Notes under the pieces: model-generated
Told to the model about the DNA's origin: nothing
Seen by the model: only the letters and a program-made list of their open reading frames with translations
Databases searched by the model: none
Part shown: positions 1 to 11,092 of the stretch, in pieces
Layout: each line of letters opens with the position of its first letter
Position numbering within the stretch: the first letter of the stretch is position 1
Translations under genes and position numbers: made by a program
DNA from: Lachnospiraceae bacterium
GTDB lineage: Bacteria; Bacillota; Clostridia; Lachnospirales; Lachnospiraceae
Direction of reading: 5' to 3'
NCBI GenBank assembly: GCA_029225065.1
Contig: JAQXVT010000033.1
Coordinates: forward strand, 1-52,864
Length of the DNA stretch: 52,864 nt

Positions 1-656
1 GCGCGCAGCAGTGCCTCATTTTTCGTGTTTGTGGAGATGCGGCGCAGTGCAGTCTCGGCCTGCTTTGCATCCTCTCCGATGCGGGTAAGGAGCGTATCCG
101 GGTCCGCAAAGCTCCGCTCTTCTGTGAAGAGGTACTGCGGACGGATGTCGTGCGGCTGAGATGGTACTTCATCTACGATCTGGAAATCAAATGCGGCTGC
201 GACGGTCGTATGATGCGGATGCGCGCTCAGATAACGGTCATAAAATCCTTTTCCATAGCCGCAGCGATTGCGGTAGCTGTCAAATCCGACACCCGGCACG
301 ATTAAAAGAGCTTTCTCATCATCTGCCGGATTTACCGCATCCGGTTCCGGAATCTGGAAGTAGCCCGGATGAAGATCGTCATAGCTTTTGATGTAAAAGT
401 AATCCATCGTCTCACCGTCTACCTTCGGGGCGGCTACCTTTTTGCCGAGCCGCCATGCTTCCTCGATCAGAGGGCGCATGCAGACCTCTCCGTTGTAATC
501 CATATAGGTATAGAGACAGTCTGCCCTCTGAAATTCCGGAAGTGCGAGGATCTTTTGGCAGATGACCTCGCTTTTTGCGGCAATTTCTTCTTCAGTCAGG
601 GTTTTTCTTCTGGCAAATACAAACCGTCTAATTTCCTTTTTTTCCATTTTTCCCAT
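1..656 (-). CDS. 5-formyltetrahydrofolate cyclo-ligase fused to ProA N-terminus (partial)
   Basis: Residues 1 to about 182 are a 5-formyltetrahydrofolate cyclo-ligase, which converts 5-formyl-THF to 5,10-methenyl-THF using ATP. It carries the family signature FDSYRNRCGYGKGFYDRYL and ends with the usual DIRPQYLFTEE stretch. The frame does not stop there: it runs on through about 36 more residues to the window edge, and IGEDAKQAETALRRISTNTK reads like the N-terminus of glutamate-5-semialdehyde dehydrogenase (ProA). No Met, GTG or TTG codon marks a separate ProA start at the junction. The ATG at 656 is chosen because GAGG lies six bases upstream; it overlaps the end of the DUF896 gene by 29 bases. 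The adjacent proB supplies the ProA substrate, which supports the ProA reading. The C-terminal part is off the window, so the fusion is seen only at its start. Confidence 0.85.
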   Translation of the reverse strand, partial: MGKMEKKEIRRFVFARRKTLTEEEIAAKSEVICQKILALPEFQRADCLYTYMDYNGEVCMRPLIEEAWRLGKKVAAPKVDGETMDYFYIKSYDDLHPGYFQIPEPDAVNPADDEKALLIVPGVGFDSYRNRCGYGKGFYDRYLSAHPHHTTVAAAFDFQIVDEVPSQPHDIRPQYLFTEERSFADPDTLLTRIGEDAKQAETALRRISTNTKNEALLR

Positions 657-867
657 AGCGTGCCTCGTATTTTTCTCCAAGATTTTCGATGCTGCCGTCT
701 TTGTTCAGAATATCGATGTGATCGAGCTGGCTTTTGAGGTTGCCGCGGATCGCTTCAATGTATTCGCTGCGAAGCATGGCCTGCTCTCTTCTCTCCTGCT
801 CGGTCAGTCCTTCCGCTTTTGATTTTCGTGCAAGTTCGTTGATGCGTGCTAATTTGGTTGAATCCAT
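628..867 (-). CDS. DUF896 (YnzC/UPF0291) family protein
   Basis: This is a small soluble protein of 79 residues matching the DUF896 family, typified by B. subtilis YnzC, a two-helix hairpin protein of unknown biochemical role. The N-terminal pattern KLARINELARKSKAEGLTEQ and the following EYIEAIRGNLKSQLDHI helix are diagnostic. A good ribosome binding site (AAAGGAG) precedes the ATG. Its 3' end overlaps the start of the cyclo-ligase-ProA gene, and proB lies upstream on the same strand, so the three are probably co-transcribed. Nothing in the sequence shows why it sits in a proline operon. Confidence 0.9.
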   Translation of the reverse strand: MDSTKLARINELARKSKAEGLTEQERREQAMLRSEYIEAIRGNLKSQLDHIDILNKDGSIENLGEKYEARYGKNGKKGN

Positions 868-909
868 ATTATACTCCTTTTCATGCGGTCAGGCAGATAT
901 CACAGGCCA

Positions 910-939
910 AAGCGGAGATCCGAAATCCGAAATCCGCTT
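910..939. repeat. palindromic element AAGCGGA...TCCGCTT between proB and DUF896
   Basis: This is a 30-base imperfect palindrome with 7-base arms (AAGCGGA and TCCGCTT) and an internal tandem ATCCGAA duplication. It resembles the 28-bp palindromic repeats at 33185, 47246, 50629 and 52146 but carries a few extra internal bases. It could form a hairpin in the proB-DUF896 transcript. No U-run follows, so a terminator role is doubtful. Confidence 0.5.
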
Positions 940-977
940 CGCTGCCTGCTTGACTCGACTGAAACAGTAATTTGCAG

Positions 978-1814
978 TTACTCTTCAAGAATGTCTGCCA
1001 GATAAAAATTTTCGTCATAGTGACCGACAAATAATGTACCGATCGCCTTGCCCTGCAAAAGTCGGTGAATGACGTGAAAGTCATCTCCGTTTGCGATGAT
1101 CATATCCGCTCCGGAGGCTGTTGCGATGCGGGCTGCGGAGAGCTTGGTAGCCATTCCGCCGGTGCCTACACTGCTGCTGCTTCCCTTGCCCATCTTCATA
1201 TAGTGGTCATCGACCTCTTCTACAATATCGATGAAACGTGCCTGTGGATTTTTGTGCGGGTCATCGGTATACAGTCCGTCGATATCCGAGAGCAGAATCA
1301 GCAGGTCTGCGTGTGTGAGCGCCGCTACGATTGCAGACAGTGTATCGTTATCACCAAACTCAATCTCATAGGTAGAAACGGTGTCGTTTTCGTTGACGAT
1401 CGGAATGGCACCGATCTTCATAAGCTCATCGAATGTGTTGGATGCATTCATACGGCTTAAGTTATCTGTCATCGTATTTTTCGTCATCAGAATCTGCGCG
1501 GCACGGTGACCGTATTCACTGAACAGCTTCTGATACGTCATCATCAGCTGTGCCTGTCCGATCGCGGCGCAGGCCTGTTTTTCCGCCACATTGGATGGAC
1601 GGTGGTGAAAACCGACTGCCTGTCTGCCGACAGCGATTGCTCCGGAAGAGACAAGAATTACATCTTTTCCCATATTTTTCAGATCACACAGCTCGCGAAC
1701 GAGCACTTCAAGCTTTGTCAGGTTCAGTGCGCCTGTCTGCTCGTGAGTGATAGAGGAGCTGCCGATTTTGATTACGATACGCTGCTTGTCTTTCAGTTTT
1801 TCTCTGAAATCCAT
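978..1814 (-). CDS. proB: glutamate 5-kinase, short form
   Basis: ProB phosphorylates L-glutamate to gamma-glutamyl phosphate, the first step of proline synthesis. The amino acid kinase fold is clear: RIVIKIGSSSITH near residues 12-24, LVSSGAIAVGRQAVG near 55-70, and the GTGGMATKLSAARIA signature around residues 217-231. At 278 residues it ends right after the kinase domain and lacks the C-terminal PUA domain found in the E. coli enzyme (367 residues). The start at 1814 has AGGAG nine bases upstream. Its usual partner ProA appears fused to a cyclo-ligase downstream on the same strand. Such short ProB proteins are known in Firmicutes. Confidence 0.95.
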   Translation of the reverse strand: MDFREKLKDKQRIVIKIGSSSITHEQTGALNLTKLEVLVRELCDLKNMGKDVILVSSGAIAVGRQAVGFHHRPSNVAEKQACAAIGQAQLMMTYQKLFSEYGHRAAQILMTKNTMTDNLSRMNASNTFDELMKIGAIPIVNENDTVSTYEIEFGDNDTLSAIVAALTHADLLILLSDIDGLYTDDPHKNPQARFIDIVEEVDDHYMKMGKGSSSSVGTGGMATKLSAARIATASGADMIIANGDDFHVIHRLLQGKAIGTLFVGHYDENFYLADILEE

Positions 1815-1917
1815 TTTAAAAATCTCCTTTGTACTCTGTTTTAAGATGTGCAGGAAAATTCATTATGCTCCTGCAGGCAGCGAAAACAAATTGTAAGTGT
1901 CCACTTTAACGCTTGAA

Positions 1918-3579
1918 TTAGCGCAACAGTCCCGCCCTGCGCAGCAGCTTGATCAGTACATGGCCTTTCGGGAACATGGCGAGTTCTTCTGCCGTGATAC
2001 CGCGGAAAGAGATCATGCCGATGCCGTATACGAAGACTCCTGCGAGGGTTCCCATGATCGTGGAAATGGTGTTTCCGGCAAATACGTGGAAAACACTGTA
2101 GATCAGGTAAGCAGCAGCGCCCATGATGATGGAAACGATGGACGGAACGATGAAAGTCTTATACCACTCCTGACGGTAGCCGAGGAAGCGGTTGATCGCC
2201 ACTGCATTTAAGACACAGACAACAAAGGCAAAGAAAATATTTGCATAAACGACTGCATAGATGTTCAGATTGAATACGGTAAGCAGCACGTAAAGCAGGA
2301 TAAAATGCAGTACCAGCGCGATGCTGTTGTTGATCAGCGGAGTCTGGAGCTTGCCGAGTCCCTGCAGAATACCGGTCGTCAGTGTGGAAAGCGCATAGAG
2401 AATAATCATCAGCGCGCCGACCTGCATGATGCCGACTGCAAGTGCTCTTCCGTTTTCAAGATTCGGATACAGCATGGTGAGGATCGGCTTTGCAAGAGCT
2501 GCCATACCTGCGGCGCACGGGATCGTAATGATCATTGTGAAGCGGATGGAGGTACGGATCTTCTGCTTTGCCTCATGCTTGTTGTTGTTTGCCATTGCTG
2601 CGGTCAGACTCGGAACGACGGACGGAGCAAGGCAGGATGCCAGCGAAAGCGGAACGTTCATCAGGACACGGAACTGTCCGGAATAAATGCCCCAGATGGT
2701 GCCGTACTGAGACTGCGTGTAGCCCTGACTGAGCAGCACCTTATTAAAGATACCCTGATCGGCTACATTGCTGATGTTGTAGATGAGCGTGCTCAGAACA
2801 ATCGGAACGATCGTGAGCATCATCGTGCGGTAGATTGCTCTTGAGGATTCGGTCTTTCCGCTGTGGTCGCGGCGCATCTGGCGGCGGATCGCCGATTTCT
2901 GCGTCGTATAGACGAACATCATAAAAAGCATTGCAACCGTGATACTTGCCACGGTGCCGAAAGTACCTCCGGCGGCACCCCATGCTGGGCCGAGCGATTC
3001 GTTGCCGTTTTCGGCGGCGAGCGACATGCCGTAGCTGTACATAATACCCGCGCAGACAACGGTCACGATTGCGTTGACGATCTGTTCAATGACTTGCGAG
3101 ACTGCGGTTGGGACCATGTTGGAATAGCCCTGAAAATAGCCGCGGAACGTGCCGACGATCGCAAAGATAAAAATGGCCGGGGCCAATACCCGCAGACCAT
3201 AGACGGCAAGTTCATACGACAGAAAATATTTTGTGATTACGCCGGCAAAGATATATGTAAGCAGTGCCAGCGCGCCGCCTGAGATTACGGCGAACCGCAT
3301 GGCGCACAGAAATACCTTGTGGGCGTTCTTGTATTCTCCTTTATGAAGGCGCTCAGAAACCAGCTTCGAGACTGCGAGCGGCAGTCCGAAGCTGGAGATC
3401 ATAAGCACGATATTGTAAATTTCGTTTGCAGTGGAATAATAGCTGTTTCCCTCATTGCCGAGGATATTTGTCAGCGGGAACCGGTACACCATTCCGATCA
3501 GCTTTGCGATAATCGAAGCAGCGGCCAGAATCGAACCCTGTACCAGATAGTTTTTACTGTCTTTCTTTTTCTCTTTCAC
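1918..3579 (-). CDS. SpoVB-like polysaccharide/lipid flippase (MOP superfamily)
   Basis: This is an integral membrane protein of about 553 residues with some 14 hydrophobic segments. It matches the SpoVB/MurJ-like branch of the MATE/MOP flippases, which move lipid-linked sugars across the membrane. The N-terminal LVQGSILAAASIIAKLIGMVYRF pattern (shown here broken as LVQGSILAAASI, then AKLIGMVYRF) and ILGNEGNSYYSTANEIYNI are typical. I choose a GTG start at 3579 because AGAGG sits seven bases upstream and because the longer frame would run back over the DUF3048 gene, which stops at 3596. Whether it serves spore cortex (SpoVB) or another polymer cannot be told, as Clostridia carry several paralogues. 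Confidence 0.88.
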   Translation of the reverse strand: MKEKKKDSKNYLVQGSILAAASIIAKLIGMVYRFPLTNILGNEGNSYYSTANEIYNIVLMISSFGLPLAVSKLVSERLHKGEYKNAHKVFLCAMRFAVISGGALALLTYIFAGVITKYFLSYELAVYGLRVLAPAIFIFAIVGTFRGYFQGYSNMVPTAVSQVIEQIVNAIVTVVCAGIMYSYGMSLAAENGNESLGPAWGAAGGTFGTVASITVAMLFMMFVYTTQKSAIRRQMRRDHSGKTESSRAIYRTMMLTIVPIVLSTLIYNISNVADQGIFNKVLLSQGYTQSQYGTIWGIYSGQFRVLMNVPLSLASCLAPSVVPSLTAAMANNNKHEAKQKIRTSIRFTMIITIPCAAGMAALAKPILTMLYPNLENGRALAVGIMQVGALMIILYALSTLTTGILQGLGKLQTPLINNSIALVLHFILLYVLLTVFNLNIYAVVYANIFFAFVVCVLNAVAINRFLGYRQEWYKTFIVPSIVSIIMGAAAYLIYSVFHVFAGNTISTIMGTLAGVFVYGIGMISFRGITAEELAMFPKGHVLIKLLRRAGLLR

Positions 3580-3595
3580 GTTTGACCTCTTGTAT

Positions 3596-4681
3596 TCAGC
3601 CAGTATAAGATGCAGTGTCCGGATATACGGCCGCATTGTCACTGTAGGAATCAAGTACAATGCAGACCCATGTCTTGCCCTGATTCAGGGTGATTTCATT
3701 TCCGTTCGCGTCATAGTAATGTGTAACACCGAAGTTTTCATTGGCGAAAGGATCTTCTGTGTTGAGGGTATCTTTTTTCCAGGTGATGTCAATTGCTTTT
3801 CCGTTTGTGATGAACTTGCCTGCGCCGCCGGAAAGTACATCGATGTTCAGATAGCCGTTGTCATCAAATTTCTCCCACGGACAGTACTGGAAGATGATAT
3901 TGTCGTATTTAAGGGCGTTGCCGGTCAGATAATCGGTCTGTACATCGCCGTACTGATAACGTGTGTATTTGCCTGTTTCTGCGTCATAGACGAAATACGG
4001 ATGATTGTATTCATAGCCCGGAGCAGCAACAATAGCATCTTCTCCTCCGTCCAGAGTCACGCGCTCGCCGTCAGCTGCAAACTGATAATGACCGTTTGTG
4101 CCGAGATATTCGTCAGAATATTCTGTTGGGTAGTTCATGTAGTCAATACCAGCCTGGATACGGTCGTAGTCTGTGAACACATTATGCGGGGCCGGAAAAT
4201 CGTCCGAGCGGTAATATACGGTATCGCCGACGGAATCCAGTCCGCTTAAATTTAAGGTAGATGGCAGATTCAGAAGATCAAGCGCGTAAACAGCCTGTCC
4301 GAAATGGAGATAATAGGTGTTGAATTCACGTGCAAAATACACATAATAATTTCTGCAGCTGCGAATACTTCCGATACGTTCTACGTCCTGATAATCCTCA
4401 AAGATACCCATCAGTCTTGTGATGCCGCCTTCGACCGGCGCCTCATAGACGACTTCCGCATTGGCGATGCCGGACTGCGGGAGTGCATCCTGAATATTGT
4501 TGAGCATGACAGAGATTGCTTTTTTGCGCCCGATGGATTCTGGTACAAGCTTTCCGGTCAGAAAGCTGCGGACCATGCCGCTTTCTTCTGCGGATGCGCA
4601 GAGTGTTCCGGTAAATGAAACAGCAAGTACAGCAGCGGCTGCAGTGGCTGCTATCAGTCGTTTCCAGTTGTTCTTTTTCAT
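3596..4681 (-). CDS. DUF3048 domain-containing exported protein (YerB-like)
   Basis: This 361-residue protein has a Lys-rich N-terminus and a hydrophobic core at residues 10-28 ending near ASA-EES, a plausible signal peptidase I site; no good lipobox is seen. The mature part matches DUF3048, as in B. subtilis YerB, with PQSGIANAEVVYEAPVEGG, ITRLMGIFED and IGSIRSCRNYYV near residues 70-120. The biochemical role of the family is unknown. It lies between ybeY and the SpoVB-like gene on the same strand with short gaps, suggesting one transcript. Confidence 0.88.
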   Translation of the reverse strand: MKKNNWKRLIAATAAAAVLAVSFTGTLCASAEESGMVRSFLTGKLVPESIGRKKAISVMLNNIQDALPQSGIANAEVVYEAPVEGGITRLMGIFEDYQDVERIGSIRSCRNYYVYFAREFNTYYLHFGQAVYALDLLNLPSTLNLSGLDSVGDTVYYRSDDFPAPHNVFTDYDRIQAGIDYMNYPTEYSDEYLGTNGHYQFAADGERVTLDGGEDAIVAAPGYEYNHPYFVYDAETGKYTRYQYGDVQTDYLTGNALKYDNIIFQYCPWEKFDDNGYLNIDVLSGGAGKFITNGKAIDITWKKDTLNTEDPFANENFGVTHYYDANGNEITLNQGKTWVCIVLDSYSDNAAVYPDTASYTG

Positions 4682-4711
4682 AAAGTGCTCTCCTTTTCTT
4701 TTTGATGTTTA

Positions 4712-5212
4712 TTATTGTCTTGCAATGCCGAGCTGCTGCAGGATTTCTTCCTGCAGACGCTCCATTTCAGCGGCGTCCTCCGGTGTCATATGGTCGTATC
4801 CCATAAGGTGCAGCATGCTGTGGGCGATCAGAAACGCAAATTCTCTTCTGCGTGAATGACCGTACTCTTCTGCCTGAGCAGCTACTTTATCTGCGGAAAT
4901 CACAATGTCTCCGAGCAGCAGTTCACCGGAATCCGGGTCAAAGCAGTCCTCGCTGTCCACCTCGAGAAACGCAAAATCGCCCGGCGTCTCATAATTTACC
5001 ATCGGAAAAGACAGAACGTCGGTCGGTCGGTCAATCTGTCTTTGCTCCAGGTTGATGCGATGAATCTCCTCGTCATCGGTAATCAGAATGCTGACCTGTG
5101 CCTCATAAGGGCAGTCCATATAGTCGAGTGCGCAGGAAACGACGTCCTGTGCGATCCCGTACAGATCAAGGCCAAGATCGAGGCTGCTTTCATTTTCAAA
5201 ATCAATGGTCAT
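4712..5212 (-). CDS. ybeY: endoribonuclease YbeY
   Basis: YbeY is a zinc-dependent endoribonuclease for 16S rRNA 3' end maturation and ribosome quality control. The metal site HSMLHLMGYDHM (the H-x3-H-x5-H signature) lies near residues 130-141 of 166, the normal family length. The segment DVLSFPM is the conserved RPTDVLSFP motif. An AGGAGG ribosome binding site precedes the ATG and phoH ends twelve bases upstream, so the two genes are coupled as in most Firmicutes. Confidence 0.95.
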   Translation of the reverse strand: MTIDFENESSLDLGLDLYGIAQDVVSCALDYMDCPYEAQVSILITDDEEIHRINLEQRQIDRPTDVLSFPMVNYETPGDFAFLEVDSEDCFDPDSGELLLGDIVISADKVAAQAEEYGHSRRREFAFLIAHSMLHLMGYDHMTPEDAAEMERLQEEILQQLGIARQ

Positions 5213-5224
5213 GCTATCCCTCCT

Positions 5225-6244
5225 TTATGCGCCGTGTTTTTCTGAAGTACTCTTCTGGTGCTTTGCAGCGCGTTTTTCTTTATAGGCTTCTTTTTTCTCA
5301 TAATCTTCGTAAGCGGTGACGATCTTCTGAACCAGCGGATGGCGGACAACGTCCTTGCTGGTCAGCTGGCAGAAAGAAATTTCTTCCACTTTTCCGAGCA
5401 CCTTCATTGCTGTGTCAAGACCGGACGTCATACCGCTTGGCAGGTCTTTCTGGGTCTGGTCTCCGGTGACGACAACCTTAGAGCCGAAACCGATTCTGGT
5501 CAGGAACATCTTCATCTGCGCCGGGGAGGTATTCTGTGCCTCGTCCAGAATGATAAAGGCGTTGTCAAGCGTACGGCCGCGCATGTAGGCGAGCGGTGCG
5601 ACCTCGATCAGACCTTTTTCCATATTTTTAAGAAAGCTCTCGGACCCCATGATCTGATACAGCGCGTCGTAGAGCGGACGCAGGTACGGGTCAACTTTGC
5701 TTTGAAGATCGCCCGGAAGAAATCCGAGTTTTTCTCCCGCTTCAATGGCCGGACGCGTCAGGATGATGCGGCTGACTTCCTCGTTTTTAAATGCAGTGAT
5801 TGCCATTGCCATCGCCAGATACGTCTTTCCGGTACCGGCCGGACCGACGCCGAAAACGATCATTTTTTTGCGAATCGCGTCAACGTAGGCTTTCTGGCCG
5901 AGTGTTTTCGGCTTGATTGGCTTTCCGTTTATCGTGTGACAGATACAGTCCCCGTCGATATCGACGATTGCATCCTGTTTTTCCTCATAAGACAGAGAAA
6001 TTGTATAATCCACGTTCTGTTCTGTGATCGGTGTCCCGCGCACAGCCAGGGCATCAAGGCTCTCAAAGATTTTTTTCGCGCGCAGTGCGTTCGTCGGACT
6101 TCCCAGGATCCGGATTTCTCCGTCACGACTGAGCACAGTGACCTGAAGTGCACGTTCGATTTTTTTTACGTACTGGTCAAACTGGCCGAAAAGTTCTTTC
6201 TGGCGCTCTGCCGGGACGGTCAGAGTCGTTTCAATCATACTCAT
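5225..6244 (-). CDS. phoH: PhoH family ATPase
   Basis: This is a cytoplasmic P-loop ATPase of the PhoH family (339 residues), probably linked to RNA metabolism through its neighbour YbeY. A KH-like N-terminal part (about residues 1-95) precedes the Walker A motif GPAGTGKTYLA near 137-147, and the Walker B-like stretch IILDEAQNTSPAQMKMFLTR lies near 234-253, followed by VVVTGDQTQKDLP. The start overlaps the end of yqfD by fourteen bases and GGAGG lies about twelve bases upstream; the ATG two codons later is an alternative start. Confidence 0.94.
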   Translation of the reverse strand: MSMIETTLTVPAERQKELFGQFDQYVKKIERALQVTVLSRDGEIRILGSPTNALRAKKIFESLDALAVRGTPITEQNVDYTISLSYEEKQDAIVDIDGDCICHTINGKPIKPKTLGQKAYVDAIRKKMIVFGVGPAGTGKTYLAMAMAITAFKNEEVSRIILTRPAIEAGEKLGFLPGDLQSKVDPYLRPLYDALYQIMGSESFLKNMEKGLIEVAPLAYMRGRTLDNAFIILDEAQNTSPAQMKMFLTRIGFGSKVVVTGDQTQKDLPSGMTSGLDTAMKVLGKVEEISFCQLTSKDVVRHPLVQKIVTAYEDYEKKEAYKEKRAAKHQKSTSEKHGA

Positions 6245-7493
6245 CTTGCGGTAATTCCTCCTTCACGTCCGATCCTGCAACTCTTTTGACGGCACTTTCC
6301 TCTGCCATCAGTGTTCCCGATGCAATCGCGGATTTTTCAGTCCACTCTATTTTAACATTATTTTCAAATATTTGAACCCCTTTTTCCTCTAAATTTTTTC
6401 TAAATAACTGTAAATTTGCCTGCAAAAGCGACAAAAGCTGTTCATTTGTGAGGCATATTTCCTGATATTCATATTCTTTTGCCGTGTAGGTTTTCACAAA
6501 GGCGGGCAGATAAAAATTTTCTGGCAGCCGCAGCTGATGGATGTCACAGATAAGATCCATGCAGTCATCTGCGGAAAAGGAGCGGGGAAAAGCGGCCGAA
6601 ATGGAAAATGGATGGCCGAGAACTTCAAATGCCGTTCGTTTCCAGGTCCGGCCGGTATAGCTTTTTTTCTGAATATTTCGCGGCTCTTCGTCGAAATAGG
6701 AAAGCTCGCAGCGAATCCGGATATCTGCGTCGGCTGCTGTGTAGCGATAGTGGCTGACCTCTCCACTGTCATCGTATACCGGAAGCACACCGGTAACGAG
6801 AAGCTGTCCCTCTTCCACCGTATCTCCGGCAGAGACAAGCGGAAGGCCGCTGCGCACGTAGATCGATGCGATGGTCCCGCTTTTGGAAGCGACAAGTGAG
6901 GAGAAACCGTCGAATACCGGCGAAGACTCCTGCATATTGGCTGCATCCTCATCGGAAAATACTCCTTCGCGGACATGGATCGTCAGCTGGGTACCGGTAA
7001 GCTCGACTGCGGTCCAGGAAAGGGAGGGAAATTCCCGGCGCAGGGAAGCGGCGAGTGCCTTGCAGTCAACGCGGCTTTTTTTCATCCCGTGAAAGATGCC
7101 TGACTGATCGAGGTATTCCAACAGAATGTCGTCGGTCAGTGCGAGATTTCCGTCGATGTGGATGTTCCAGATGTGGGAAGAAAGCCAGAACAAAAGAAAA
7201 AAAGAGGCAAGAATGCCCAACATGGACAGCTTGCGCCTGCGGCAGCGAAAAAGCAGAAAAGGAAGGCCACAGCGTCTTACGATGCGCAGCCGGACATGGC
7301 TTTTCCTTAATATCGGGCGAAGGGCGAAAAAATCTTTTTTCAGAAGAAAAACCTCGTACCCCTCACCGGATGGGAGCAGATCCCAGAGGCGAATCCGGTG
7401 AAAGGCGCAGAGGTTAAAAAAACGGTCACAGGACTTACCGGAGATCCGGATCCGTATGTAACCCTTTGCAAAATCCAGAAAATGTGATTCCAT
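6231..7493 (-). CDS. yqfD: sporulation protein YqfD
   Basis: YqfD is a membrane-anchored sporulation protein expressed in the mother cell in B. subtilis; its exact activity is not known. The protein has 420 residues, close to the family length. A basic region precedes a single strong membrane segment (SMLGILASFFLLFWLSSHIW, near residues 89-108). The following extracytoplasmic part begins with IHIDGNLALTDD and contains GTIASIYVRSGLPLVSAGD, typical of the family. It follows yqfC and overlaps phoH, which is the common clostridial gene order. Confidence 0.93.
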   Translation of the reverse strand: MESHFLDFAKGYIRIRISGKSCDRFFNLCAFHRIRLWDLLPSGEGYEVFLLKKDFFALRPILRKSHVRLRIVRRCGLPFLLFRCRRRKLSMLGILASFFLLFWLSSHIWNIHIDGNLALTDDILLEYLDQSGIFHGMKKSRVDCKALAASLRREFPSLSWTAVELTGTQLTIHVREGVFSDEDAANMQESSPVFDGFSSLVASKSGTIASIYVRSGLPLVSAGDTVEEGQLLVTGVLPVYDDSGEVSHYRYTAADADIRIRCELSYFDEEPRNIQKKSYTGRTWKRTAFEVLGHPFSISAAFPRSFSADDCMDLICDIHQLRLPENFYLPAFVKTYTAKEYEYQEICLTNEQLLSLLQANLQLFRKNLEEKGVQIFENNVKIEWTEKSAIASGTLMAEESAVKRVAGSDVKEELPQDEYD

Positions 7494-7514
7494 AGCTGTC
7501 CCGGGCGGAGCGCA

Positions 7515-7793
7515 TCACTCAGGAAAAAACAGGCTTTTGATATGGCCGGAGATTTCGATTTCGTCTCGGGTGTAGGACTCGATCTCAAGATGGCTGCCGA
7601 TAATACAGAGGCAGCCTTTTCTGGTCAGAAGCCGGATCTCCTCACAGGAATAGCGGGAAATGCCGCGAAAGTTTTCCACACGCACGTAGTTCTGTCCATG
7701 CAGGGAAACAAATACGGTTCCCTTTGCCAGATCATCCGGGAACTGGAGCGCCCGGAGCGCTCCTCCGGAATCAGGGCTCTGCTTTTTTGTCAT
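7515..7793 (-). CDS. yqfC: YqfC/YabP-family sporulation protein
   Basis: This 92-residue protein belongs to the YabP/YqfC family of sporulation proteins. The conserved features are the GTVFVSLHGQNYVRVENFRG strand pair and the terminal LEIESYTRDEIEISGHIKSL segment. Its function is unknown. It is first in the run yqfC-yqfD-phoH-ybeY, and a sigma-E-like promoter lies 28 bases upstream, matching known mother-cell control in Bacillus. Confidence 0.92.
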   Translation of the reverse strand: MTKKQSPDSGGALRALQFPDDLAKGTVFVSLHGQNYVRVENFRGISRYSCEEIRLLTRKGCLCIIGSHLEIESYTRDEIEISGHIKSLFFPE

Positions 7794-7820
7794 GTGTCTG
7801 CTCCGCAGTGTTTATTACTC

Positions 7821-7849
7821 AGTATATGAGAAATACAGCGAAGTATTCC
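7821..7849 (-). promoter_or_regulatory. sigma-E-like promoter of yqfC
   Basis: Read on the minus strand, GGAATACT is followed by CATATACT, with fifteen bases between GAATA and CATA. Sigma-E promoters of Bacillus have ATA near -35 and CATACAAT near -10 with similar spacing; six of the eight -10 bases agree here. No good sigma-A pair was found in this gap. The call rests on pattern and on the identity of the downstream gene. Confidence 0.5.
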
Positions 7850-7907
7850 AGGTTTTAACAAAGTCAGGAAAGTCCATTGCTTCCATTGCAAATATCAGCT
7901 TTAACTG

Positions 7908-8876
7908 TCATGAGAAAAATGCAGTCAAATGCTTCAGGTAGGTGCGAAGCACCAGTGTATTACTGTTGATGATCTCATGCTTTGTGCCTGGCACACGAAT
8001 CAGGCTTGCATCCACGCCTCTTCTGTGGAGCTTTCGGATGAATCGATCCTGCTCTTTTTTAGATACAAGGCGTTCGTCGTGAGCCTGGAACAAAAGAACG
8101 GGGATCTGGATCTGGCAGTATCCGCGGTACTGCAGGTACCGGTTTAATTCTCCTGCCGCATGCAGCCAGCCGTAGGATGGAGCGGAAAGCTGGAGCAGAA
8201 TGTCTTTTTCCCGTTTTTTCTGGTAGAAATCAAAGCGTGCCCGGGAAGTCCCGCAGCTTTTTTCAAAGTATTCCGGTTTGCTGTATGGCTTCTGACCTGC
8301 CACGTAGCGGTCAGAACGGCCGCTGCGGCAAAAACAGGAAGCGATCCGCTGCGCACTGCGGTATGGCACCGGGAAGGTCAGGGGACGGATCATCGGGGAG
8401 GACAGGATTACTTTTGCAAACAACGTCGGATCTGCGGATACAGCTGCGGCTGCAATTCCTCCGCCCATGGAATGACCGTAAAGATAAAGCGGAAGCTGCG
8501 GGAGTGCGTGTTTTACACGTCTTGCAGTAAAGAGGAGATCTGCGATGTAGCGCTGCCAGGAGTCGATGTGGACAAGGGACGGATCATCCGTCAGACGGTA
8601 GCTGTGCCCGTGACCGCAGTGTTCCGGAAAGCAGACGTGATAGCCGCCCTCCAGCAGATAATAAATAAATTCCTTGTATCTTTCAAGGTTTTCGGTAAAT
8701 CCGTGTGAGACAAGGATTGTTCCTTTCGGTGTCTTTTCTGTGCGGTAAAGCAGGACATGAATGGATCGGCCTGCTTCACGGGAGAGAAAAAAGGAAGCGC
8801 CGTGTGCATTCAAATATGGTTCTACGATTTCGTTCATGGCCTGTGCGTAGGTCTGTTCGGTAAGCAGTTTGATCAT
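7908..8876 (-). CDS. alpha/beta hydrolase (lysophospholipase/monoglyceride lipase-like)
   Basis: This is a cytoplasmic serine hydrolase of 322 residues. The nucleophile elbow GHSMGGG is near residues 134-140, the acidic residue is in AHDERLVS (about 272), and the histidine is in VPGTKHEI (about 300), giving the usual Ser-Asp-His triad. The TILVSHGFTENLERYKEFI and FPEHCGHGHS segments resemble the Hydrolase_4 lipases. The substrate cannot be told. GGAG lies upstream of the ATG. It stands alone between yqfC and rlmH. Confidence 0.88.
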   Translation of the reverse strand: MIKLLTEQTYAQAMNEIVEPYLNAHGASFFLSREAGRSIHVLLYRTEKTPKGTILVSHGFTENLERYKEFIYYLLEGGYHVCFPEHCGHGHSYRLTDDPSLVHIDSWQRYIADLLFTARRVKHALPQLPLYLYGHSMGGGIAAAAVSADPTLFAKVILSSPMIRPLTFPVPYRSAQRIASCFCRSGRSDRYVAGQKPYSKPEYFEKSCGTSRARFDFYQKKREKDILLQLSAPSYGWLHAAGELNRYLQYRGYCQIQIPVLLFQAHDERLVSKKEQDRFIRKLHRRGVDASLIRVPGTKHEIINSNTLVLRTYLKHLTAFFS

Positions 8877-8972
8877 AGCTGCATCTCCTTTCTGTCTGAC
8901 TGCGGTAGAGTGAAACTGGTTGTGTATGAAGCAGGCGCACCCATAGGTTGCCCGTTTAGCAGCTCAAGCGGA

Positions 8973-9452
8973 TTATTTGTGGTATGGTTCCCCTTTGATG
9001 ATGCGGAAACAGCGATAAATCTGTTCAAGCAGGACGACTCGCATCAGCTGGTGAGGAAATGTCATCGGGGAAAAGCTTAAATGTTCGTCCGCACGTTTCT
9101 GGACGGCCTGAGAAAGTCCGAGAGAGCCGCCAATCACGAAGCAGATGTGGCTTTTTCCCTGTACGGTGAGCTGTTCCAGATGGGCGGCAAGCTGCTCGGA
9201 GGAACGCTGTTTTCCCTGAATCACCAAAGCAATGACGTAGGCATCCTCTTTGATATTCTGCAGAATCCGCTGCCCTTCCTTTTCTTTGATCTGCGTCTCA
9301 AGCGCTTCGCTGGCACCGTCCGGTGTCTTTTCATCGGGAAGCTCAAGGATTTCAAGACTGCAGTAACGGGAAAGCCGCTTGCTGTACTCTGCGATGGCAT
9401 CGCGGTAAAACTTTTCCTTGATTTTTCCAACGGTAATTAAAGTGATTTTCAT
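8973..9452 (-). CDS. rlmH: 23S rRNA (pseudouridine-1915-N3)-methyltransferase RlmH
   Basis: RlmH is a SPOUT methyltransferase that methylates pseudouridine 1915 in helix 69 of 23S rRNA using S-adenosylmethionine. With the ATG at 9452 (GGGAGG upstream) the protein is 159 residues, the normal size. The N-terminus [20 protein letters not shown], the SAM-knot segment [13 protein letters not shown] and the C-terminal [20 protein letters not shown] followed by YRCFRI are all diagnostic. Confidence 0.96.
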
Positions 9453-9493
9453 GGGACCTCCCTGTGGGCAAGCATACATATATAATGGTTACT

Positions 9494-9622
9494 GTTCAGA
9501 GCCAACCTCCAACGTGCTGTGCGTTTTGTCGGTGTGGCGTATTCGCCAGACAAAATTTTAAAAGTGCCTTTAAAACACGAGCGTTTTACATTTACTTTAT
9601 GCAATTTTACCTGGCGCTGAAC
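9494..9622. repeat. ~130-bp intergenic repeat with terminal inverted repeats (copy 1)
   Basis: The element begins with GTTCAGAGCC and ends with GGCGCTGAAC, an inverted pair with one mismatch. Its reverse complement aligns along its whole length with the element at 38649-38781; the best block is GGCG-A-TACGCCAC plus flanks next to the GGCTCTGAAC end. It carries no convincing gene. Size and ends are MITE-like, but no transposase with matching ends is in the window. It lies between rlmH and the nfnB terminator. Confidence 0.75.
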
Positions 9623-9638
9623 AGGAACATAACGGAAA

Positions 9639-9669
9639 AGCCGGATGGCGGAGAAACTGCCATCCGGCT
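9639..9669 (-). terminator. intrinsic terminator after nfnB
   Basis: Perfect 11-base arms AGCCGGATGGC and GCCATCCGGCT enclose a nine-base loop. On the minus strand the stem is followed by TTTTCCGTT, so it terminates transcripts coming from nfnB. Confidence 0.8.
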
Positions 9670-9700
9670 CGTGATCATGCGTGATATCGTATGAATGAAC

Positions 9701-11092
9701 TTAATTCTTTGATTTCAGGAACTCATCGATTCCCTTTGCAGCTGCTTTTCCAGCGCCCATTGCAAGGATAACGGTAGCTGCACCTGTTACGGCATCGCCG
9801 CCGGCGAATACGCCGTCCTTGGAAGTCTGGCCGGTCACATCGTCTGCTACGATGCATTTTCTGCGGTTCGTATCAAGACCGATGGTTGTGGAAGAGATCA
9901 GCGGGTTCGGTGAAGTACCAAGAGACATGATAACGGTATCGACATCAAGGTCGAACTCGGATCCCGGAACCTCTACCGGACGTCTTCTGCCGGATGCATC
10001 CGGCTCGCCAAGCTCCATGCGGATGCATCTCATGCCTGCAACGCAGTCATTCTCATCTACAAGGATTTCTTTCGGGTTGGTGAGGAGATCAAAGATGATA
10101 CCCTCTTCTTTTGCGTGATGTACTTCCTCGGCACGTGCCGGAAGCTCTGCTTCACTTCTGCGGTATACGATATGTACTTCAGCGCCAAGACGAAGTGCTG
10201 TTCTTGCAGCGTCCATCGCTACATTTCCACCACCGACAACGGCAACCTTCTTGCCATGTGCGATCGGTGTGTCATAATCCTCGCGGAATGCCTTCATCAG
10301 GTTGTTTCTGGTCAGGAACTCGTTTGCGGAGAAGACACCCTTTGCGGTCTCGCCCGGGATACCCATGAACATCGGAAGTCCTGCACCGGAACCGATGAAG
10401 ACTGCCTCGAAGCCTTCCTCATCAAGCAGCTCGTCGATGGTGACGGATTTGCCGATGATAACGTTGGTCTCGATCTTTACGCCAAGAGATTTTACGTTCT
10501 CTACTTCCTTTGCAACGACATCGAGCTTCGGAAGACGGAACTCCGGAATACCGTAAACAAGTACGCCGCCTGCCTCATGCAGAGCCTCGAAGATCGTAAC
10601 GTCGTATCCCATCTTTGCAAGATCGCCGGCGCAGGTAAGTCCGGAAGGACCGGAACCGATAACTGCGACTTTCTTGCCGTTTTTCTCTGCCGGAGCAGTC
10701 GGCTTGATGCCGTTTTCTCTTGCCCAGTCAGCAACGAAACGCTCCAGCTTGCCGATGGAAACAGATTCGCCCTTGATACCACGGATGCATTTTCCCTCGC
10801 ACTGGCTCTCCTGCGGGCAGACACGACCGCAGATTGCCGGAAGTGCACTTGACAGGGAAATTACTTTGTATGCTTCCTCAAAGTTGCCTTCTTTTACTTC
10901 TTTGATGAAATCCGGGATATTGATGGATACCGGACATCCCTGTACACATTTTGCATTTTTGCAGTGCAGGCAGCGGGAAGCCTCTTCCATTGCTTCCTCT
11001 TTATTGTATCCAAGACATACCTCGTCAAAATTTGTTGCTCTTACCTTCGGATCCTGCTCTCTTACAGGAACTTTCTTTAATACGTCTGCCAT
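9701..11092 (-). CDS. nfnB: NfnB, FAD/4Fe-4S subunit of electron-bifurcating transhydrogenase
   Basis: This 463-residue flavoprotein belongs to the glutamate synthase small subunit/GltD-like family. The N-terminus holds two Cys clusters for 4Fe-4S centres (CLHCKNAKCVQGCP near 41-54 and CGRVCPQESQCEGKC near 88-102). Two dinucleotide folds follow: VAVIGSGPSGLTCAGDLAK near 145 and VAVVGGGNVAMDAARTAL near 285. It is often annotated gltA, but no glutamate synthase large subunit is nearby and it is translationally coupled to nfnA (TAATG overlap, GGAGG inside the nfnA end). That pairing indicates Nfn, which couples NADH, ferredoxin and NADP(H). Confidence 0.88.
   Translation of the reverse strand: MADVLKKVPVREQDPKVRATNFDEVCLGYNKEEAMEEASRCLHCKNAKCVQGCPVSINIPDFIKEVKEGNFEEAYKVISLSSALPAICGRVCPQESQCEGKCIRGIKGESVSIGKLERFVADWARENGIKPTAPAEKNGKKVAVIGSGPSGLTCAGDLAKMGYDVTIFEALHEAGGVLVYGIPEFRLPKLDVVAKEVENVKSLGVKIETNVIIGKSVTIDELLDEEGFEAVFIGSGAGLPMFMGIPGETAKGVFSANEFLTRNNLMKAFREDYDTPIAHGKKVAVVGGGNVAMDAARTALRLGAEVHIVYRRSEAELPARAEEVHHAKEEGIIFDLLTNPKEILVDENDCVAGMRCIRMELGEPDASGRRRPVEVPGSEFDLDVDTVIMSLGTSPNPLISSTTIGLDTNRRKCIVADDVTGQTSKDGVFAGGDAVTGAATVILAMGAGKAAAKGIDEFLKSKN

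Follow-up and report, generated by a model that had tools for sequence, protein, structure and literature searches.

A stop-free fusion of 5-formyltetrahydrofolate cyclo-ligase to ProA in Lachnospiraceae, very probably formed by stop codon loss between neighbouring genes

The window analyzed here, i.e. the whole stretch of 52,864 nucleotides, corresponds to contig C33 of a draft assembly (88 contigs, 96% complete), and its base 1 is the end of that contig. At this end the frame of 5-formyl-THF cyclo-ligase (FTCL) lies on the minus strand and is stop-free down to base 1, with the C-terminal tail TEERSFADPDTLLTRIGEDAKQAETALRRISTNTKNEALLR. The features are the following:

1 to 656, minus strand: first 218 codons of the gene for the FTCL::ProA fusion, whose frame runs off the contig end into contig C84 (L027:142-1303)
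129 to 641, minus strand: FTCL domain (PF01812 / TIGR02727), from profile matches
75 to 116, minus strand: domain junction RSFADPDTLLTRIG, without in-frame start codon
1 to 95, minus strand: first helix of the ProA domain, from the sequence and helix 182-201 of the L007 model
1 to 141, no strand: exact 141-base overlap with C84:1-141 of the same genome
628 to 867, minus strand: DUF896 (PF05979) gene, 79 aa, its 3' end overlapping the probable fusion start by 29 nt
978 to 1814, minus strand: proB, glutamate 5-kinase, a separate gene upstream in the same direction (TIGR01027, 336.6 bits, cut-off 186)

The fusion likely starts at the ATG at 656, as judged from a GAGG 6 nt before it; another ATG is found at 647. 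No tRNA was found by a scan of positions 1-10000, and positions 1-1900 gave no match in the phage collection searched.

A preliminary description of this end had proposed that the FTCL frame reads through into ProA. The continuation was found on C84, a contig of 3204 bases which carries ProA at its very start, as seen from an aldehyde dehydrogenase search of the same genome. Reverse-complemented, C33 ends in 141 bases identical to those with which C84 begins, and the frame passes from C33 into C84 and through a complete ProA without a stop, which bears out the proposed read-through. The stop codon or frameshift looked for just left of base 1 is absent from C84, and the in-frame aldehyde dehydrogenase-superfamily domain, expected at about 400 residues, is present with about 410. 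The 141-mer has two sites in the genome, both at contig ends (C33 and C84), and no third copy was found. Counted from MEKKEIRR, the joined protein has 602 residues and a calculated mass of 67.0 kDa, close to the 65 kDa or so that had been anticipated; from the ATG at 656 it has 605 residues. The proB gene does lie upstream as described, separated by the DUF896 gene, and a MiaB-like frame is present downstream of ProA on C84.

Both halves were assigned with profiles. The FTCL half scores 130.7 bits against PF01812 (positions 641-129, cut-off 27) and 150.7 bits against the TIGR02727 equivalog (cut-off 84.9); the ProA half on C84 scores 610.4 bits against PRK00197 (cut-off 289) and 512.3 bits against TIGR00407 (cut-off 317.45). 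The profile of delta-1-pyrroline-5-carboxylate synthase (P5CS, a ProB::ProA protein), TIGR01092, gives 322.8 bits, below its cut-off of 796.75, and is matched by its reductase part only, proB being a separate gene. FTCL has one match above cut-off in the genome, and one ProA, the fused copy, exceeds the TIGR00407 cut-off, the second and weak match (59 bits) falling below it; for this reason the fusion appears to be the sole source of both enzymes within the assembled 96% of the genome.

Conserved residues were examined in an alignment of 53 rows (52 of the 309 proteins found, plus L007). In the FTCL half K2, R6, E53, E100, P101, P117-G118, F121-D122, R127, G129, Y130, G131, G133, Y135 and D136 are invariant; judged by sequence, the conserved residues of the ATP/folate site are thus among those retained, the roles of the individual residues in that site being presumed. 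The window FTCL was aligned by sequence with the solved structures 1ydm, 2jcb and 1sou. In the ProA half the stretch V436-S442 is invariant and includes C437, which stands in the CNA context of the active site, aligns with a cysteine of 1o20, 4ghk and 8zok, and which we take to be the catalytic cysteine. The motifs G[YF]GxG[YF]YD and [GS][VTS]CNA are both found in 244 of the 246 FTCL::ProA proteins of at least 590 residues.

Compared with known enzymes, the N-terminal half has the whole domain, the invariant motifs and the above-cut-off equivalog score of bacterial FTCL (TIGR02727; B. subtilis YqgN, E. coli YgfA), from which the fusion differs by the ProA, about 415 residues long, at its C-terminus. 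The other half shares the full-length domain and the cysteine motif with ProA (TIGR00407, PRK00197; T. maritima 1o20, to which it is 53% identical in a fold search, and E. coli 8zok), but in the window genome it has no start of its own and its N-terminus is joined to FTCL. P5CS likewise has an ATP-using enzyme on the N-terminus of ProA, whereas the partner is here FTCL and not glutamate 5-kinase.

The junction of the window genome is visible only across two contigs of a draft assembly; in relatives it is uncut. The same fusion is unbroken on single contigs in L006 (a MAG, Oscillospiraceae bacterium S14_Bin4, 609 aa as scanned) and L007 (Lachnospiraceae bacterium SUG1168, 606 aa as scanned), with both domains above cut-off in each, so that the evidence for the fusion extends beyond the two contig ends. 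In several species both domains are encoded by one open frame within a single contig. Of the 47 genomes of the genus, 25 contain the whole fusion in one frame on one contig (residues 1 or 2 to about 600, no stop). Two more fusions are cut by contigs, that of the window genome (G000, split) and that of G331 (residues 1-400, up to the contig end), which brings the count to 27/47. Matches without any row across the junction were obtained in 19 genomes, and one genome gave no match. In the unfused genus members examined, ProA is located beside its own ProB or alone, apart from FTCL. Leaving aside its better-conserved C-terminal part, this ProA shows mostly 35-50% identity with the fused type.

Two of these divergent unfused ProA (L106:2028-3548 and L112:2250-3638) carry an acidic-rich insert of tens of residues and adjoin their own ProB at another site; split alignments suggest the same insert in other unfused members of the genus. 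A further locus, L105 (G323), shows the order ProB-DUF896-FTCL-MiaB, with no proA between FTCL and miaB and an FTCL 71% identical to the fused type, while a 39%-identical ProA is found on another contig of that genome; a loss of the ProA half is possible there.

To widen the sampling we used three protein-database searches, in which the FTCL part alone was scored, a length filter was set against standalone FTCL, and the reach was limited to relatives sharing exact words. FTCL::ProA proteins accounted for 63 of 69 matches in the first search, the other six being five proteins with MiaB domains and one with PF09719; for 72 among the 120 matches listed of 129 in the second; and for all 120 matches listed of 171 in the third. 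In all there are at least 255 distinct FTCL::ProA sequences, which is not a species count because many rows of the third search share identity at near-equal score. The other 48 proteins listed in the second search consist, by table count, of 6 FTCL::MiaB, 21 FTCL with GNAT, 9 LplA-type::FTCL and 12 others. Within the protein matches P0138-P0189, the partners of FTCL include GNAT acetyltransferase, lipoate-ligase-type, luciferase-type and formyltransferase domains, some of these being named by what we take to be their Pfam domain names. Among the six legible source names of FTCL::ProA proteins, five refer to the ProA half only and one is "hypothetical protein", so that the fusion also bears on annotation.

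The distribution in the family was surveyed with the fusion as query in 299 genomes, about one per genus; the counts, taken from the genomes listed, are lower bounds. At least four genomes (G013, G152, G172 and G106) span both domains without a stop, which places the fusion in four or more genera. Within this sample, uninterrupted FTCL::ProA fusions form a minority (4 among those listed, 299 genomes). In at least 22 genomes FTCL and ProA share a frame that is interrupted by one or two stops, and in all 20 loci checked of those 22 the stops lie ahead of the ProA start (this locus set excludes ProA shorter than 350 residues (L097), pairs more than 700 nt apart and duplicated rows for ProA). A common gene order in the family is proB-DUF896-FTCL-proA: ProA is directly 3' of FTCL within a short flank in 15 of 30 family loci, most of them in this order. 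Among the separate pairs examined, the distance between the FTCL stop and the first candidate start of proA ranges from -13 to +91 nt, with L048 at +341 nt. A class-wide search at E <= 1e-180 gave 0/391 genomes, a limit that missed even the window's own split copy and has no bearing on absence outside the family. Where miaB is directly 3' of FTCL, FTCL can be fused to MiaB instead, as in the family genomes G030 and G273; FTCL::MiaB frames of this kind are L061:2474-4480 (minus strand, 668 aa) and L064:2497-4548 (minus strand, 683 aa). These FTCL::MiaB proteins, also present in the database (P0060, P0061), share the N-terminal domain of FTCL::ProA and take their partner from the same cluster, but that partner is a tRNA methylthiotransferase.

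The number of origins was estimated on a tree of 82 rows (45 fused, 37 separate), for which FTCL and ProA were aligned apart and then concatenated. Columns filled in fewer than 30% of rows were dropped, and for database proteins the linker was kept with the FTCL part. The input comprised 28 of the 255 fusion proteins, 16 of 28 fused loci, the window's own protein and 37 of 38 separate pairs; the 12 fused loci outside the tree are all of the genus type, and L036, a very long row, was dropped before the concatenated tree. At minimum 8 changes between the fused and separate states are required, or 7, 6 and 4 when branches weaker than 95/95, 100/95 and 100/99, respectively, are collapsed. A single origin of all fused rows is rejected: forcing the 45 rows into one clade, which was set by the fused trait and not chosen from the tree, costs 513 log-likelihood units (p-AU 2.7e-45). 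A preliminary quick tree of ProA alone (83 rows) gave 11 changes. Given the 4-8 changes and the rejection of the one-clade constraint, the concatenated tree indicates that the fusion had more than one origin, or was reversed in some places. At L141 (G223), FTCL and ProA are separate within a well-supported fused clade, which represents either a fission or a second fusion event. Several points go beyond what had been described from the window: the fusion is shared by most of the genus sample (27/47) and reaches four or more genera, it has more than one origin, and it is tied to gene order.

We then considered the junction itself. That of the window has no in-frame ATG, GTG or TTG at register residues 165-209, in agreement with the initial remark that an internal start codon is lacking. 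Among 26 distinct genus fusions, nine, the window's included, have none at residues 176-200; the other 17 have some, five of them with a 4-base SD-like core, and no position is common to all of these. The linker between the alignment ends measures 7 residues in genus-type fusions and 9 in L074, where the FTCL alignment ends two residues earlier. Ratios of dN/dS were computed for 27 genus-type coding sequences, two of them from one genome (L062, L076), from pairs with dS < 1.2. The medians are 0.16 for FTCL (49/351 pairs), 0.31 for the 14-residue junction (115/351 pairs) and 0.065 for ProA (55/351 pairs), and in these alignments both domains are seen to be under purifying selection. An AlphaFold2 model of the L007 fusion, built on 53 sequences, has a mean pLDDT of 86.1 and a pTM of 0.83; it is ordered through the junction (block means 92), with pLDDT <50 at 552-575. 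Its helix 182-201 agrees with the earlier suggestion that the tail of the frame reads like the first helix of ProA. All 50 Foldseek matches listed for this model belong to ProA, P5CS or further aldehyde dehydrogenases. Because the larger domain dominates, FTCL structures do not appear in that list, and the FTCL half was linked to solved structures by sequence instead.

We consider it very probable that this is a real FTCL::ProA fusion of about 605 residues, which originated by stop-loss between neighbours and keeps both sites, most likely independent of each other. Ancestrally, FTCL and proA would have abutted in the same frame within a proB-DUF896-FTCL-proA cluster; the FTCL stop codon would have been lost and the short intergenic stretch turned into a linker of a few residues. 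Translation from the FTCL start, in a cluster proB-DUF896-[FTCL::proA]-miaB, would then give one chain, whose FTCL half is predicted to convert 5-formyl-THF to 5,10-methenyl-THF with ATP and whose ProA half is predicted to carry out the NADPH-dependent reduction of gamma-glutamyl phosphate, the product of ProB. Loss of the stop between genes that abut in the same frame would account for the short linker, for relatives in which one or two stops separate the halves, and for MiaB as the partner where miaB follows. We therefore read the sequences as recurrent stop-loss between neighbours, leaving two putative active sites that work independently. The merger is most likely due to side-by-side genes rather than to linked chemistry, and a functional link, though possible, is not needed to explain it.

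Recurrence could instead reflect selection for linkage. The fusion would then have been selected for 1:1 expression, for placing FTCL beside ProA/ProB, or for a folate-binding domain regulating proline synthesis. Repeated origins with the same partner, intact and constrained domains, the short linker and the order predicted by the model across the junction all point in this direction, as may, by analogy, the N-terminal kinase partner of ProA in P5CS. We nevertheless hold such a link to be unlikely: the FTCL and ProA reactions have, to our knowledge, no common intermediate, FTCL joins MiaB when miaB adjoins and GNAT, LplA-type or other domains elsewhere, and 19 of the 47 genus genomes show no row across the junction, with a divergent ProA apart from FTCL where both were seen. 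Metabolic channelling is rated low because of this lack of a shared intermediate and because the partner changes with gene order; the original remark on a pairing with no obvious metabolic channel is upheld. The bolder form, in which FTCL::ProA was fixed repeatedly since linkage pays, a folate/ATP-binding domain tuning or placing the proline enzyme or the reverse, we find improbable; if true, one-carbon status would be tied to proline synthesis in these bacteria, comparable to the kinase domain on the same ProA end in P5CS.

Even less probable are separate products, the open frame serving as a translational coupling device only and ProA arising from an internal start or by cleavage. Unfused relatives do have a candidate proA start close to the FTCL stop, and internal initiation of ProA is possible in the 17 genus fusions with in-frame start codons; but in the nine others, including the window's, there is nothing to start from at residues 176-200, and the 17 share no position. 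In L065, an independent fusion, an ATG with GAGGAA upstream is kept at the join, which may allow internal initiation of ProA in that case. An assembly or frameshift artefact, suggested by a window ending within a gene and an overlap of 141 bases, a usual assembler k-mer length, has almost no chance of being correct and is in effect refuted by the uncut relatives (25 of 47 genus genomes and at least 255 distinct database proteins), with dN/dS well below 1 and the 141-mer confined to its two sites also against it.

We regard the fusion as real and recurrent; no description of FTCL::ProA turned up in a literature search of titles and abstract openings, and the main interest of the fusion is that it joins enzymes with no clear pathway in common. 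Gene fusion is often taken as proof that enzymes work together. On more than one occasion FTCL has joined the gene next to it in the cluster, be it proA or miaB, and some relatives differ by one or two stop codons; this makes it a good test case of how far fusions of cluster neighbours reflect function or adjacency. The terms 5-formyltetrahydrofolate, proline and glutamyl phosphate have 0 occurrences in the main text of the gene-fusion survey PMC4921024, whose online database of 3.8 million potential fusions, or supplement, may include FTCL::ProA. Finally, another composite protein was observed in the same family: in G186, a 907-aa frame (L063:3800-6523, minus strand) combines FolD, FolC and FTCL in a three-enzyme folate fusion, and the adjoining 207-aa frame resembles, by eye, formimidoyl-THF cyclodeaminase.
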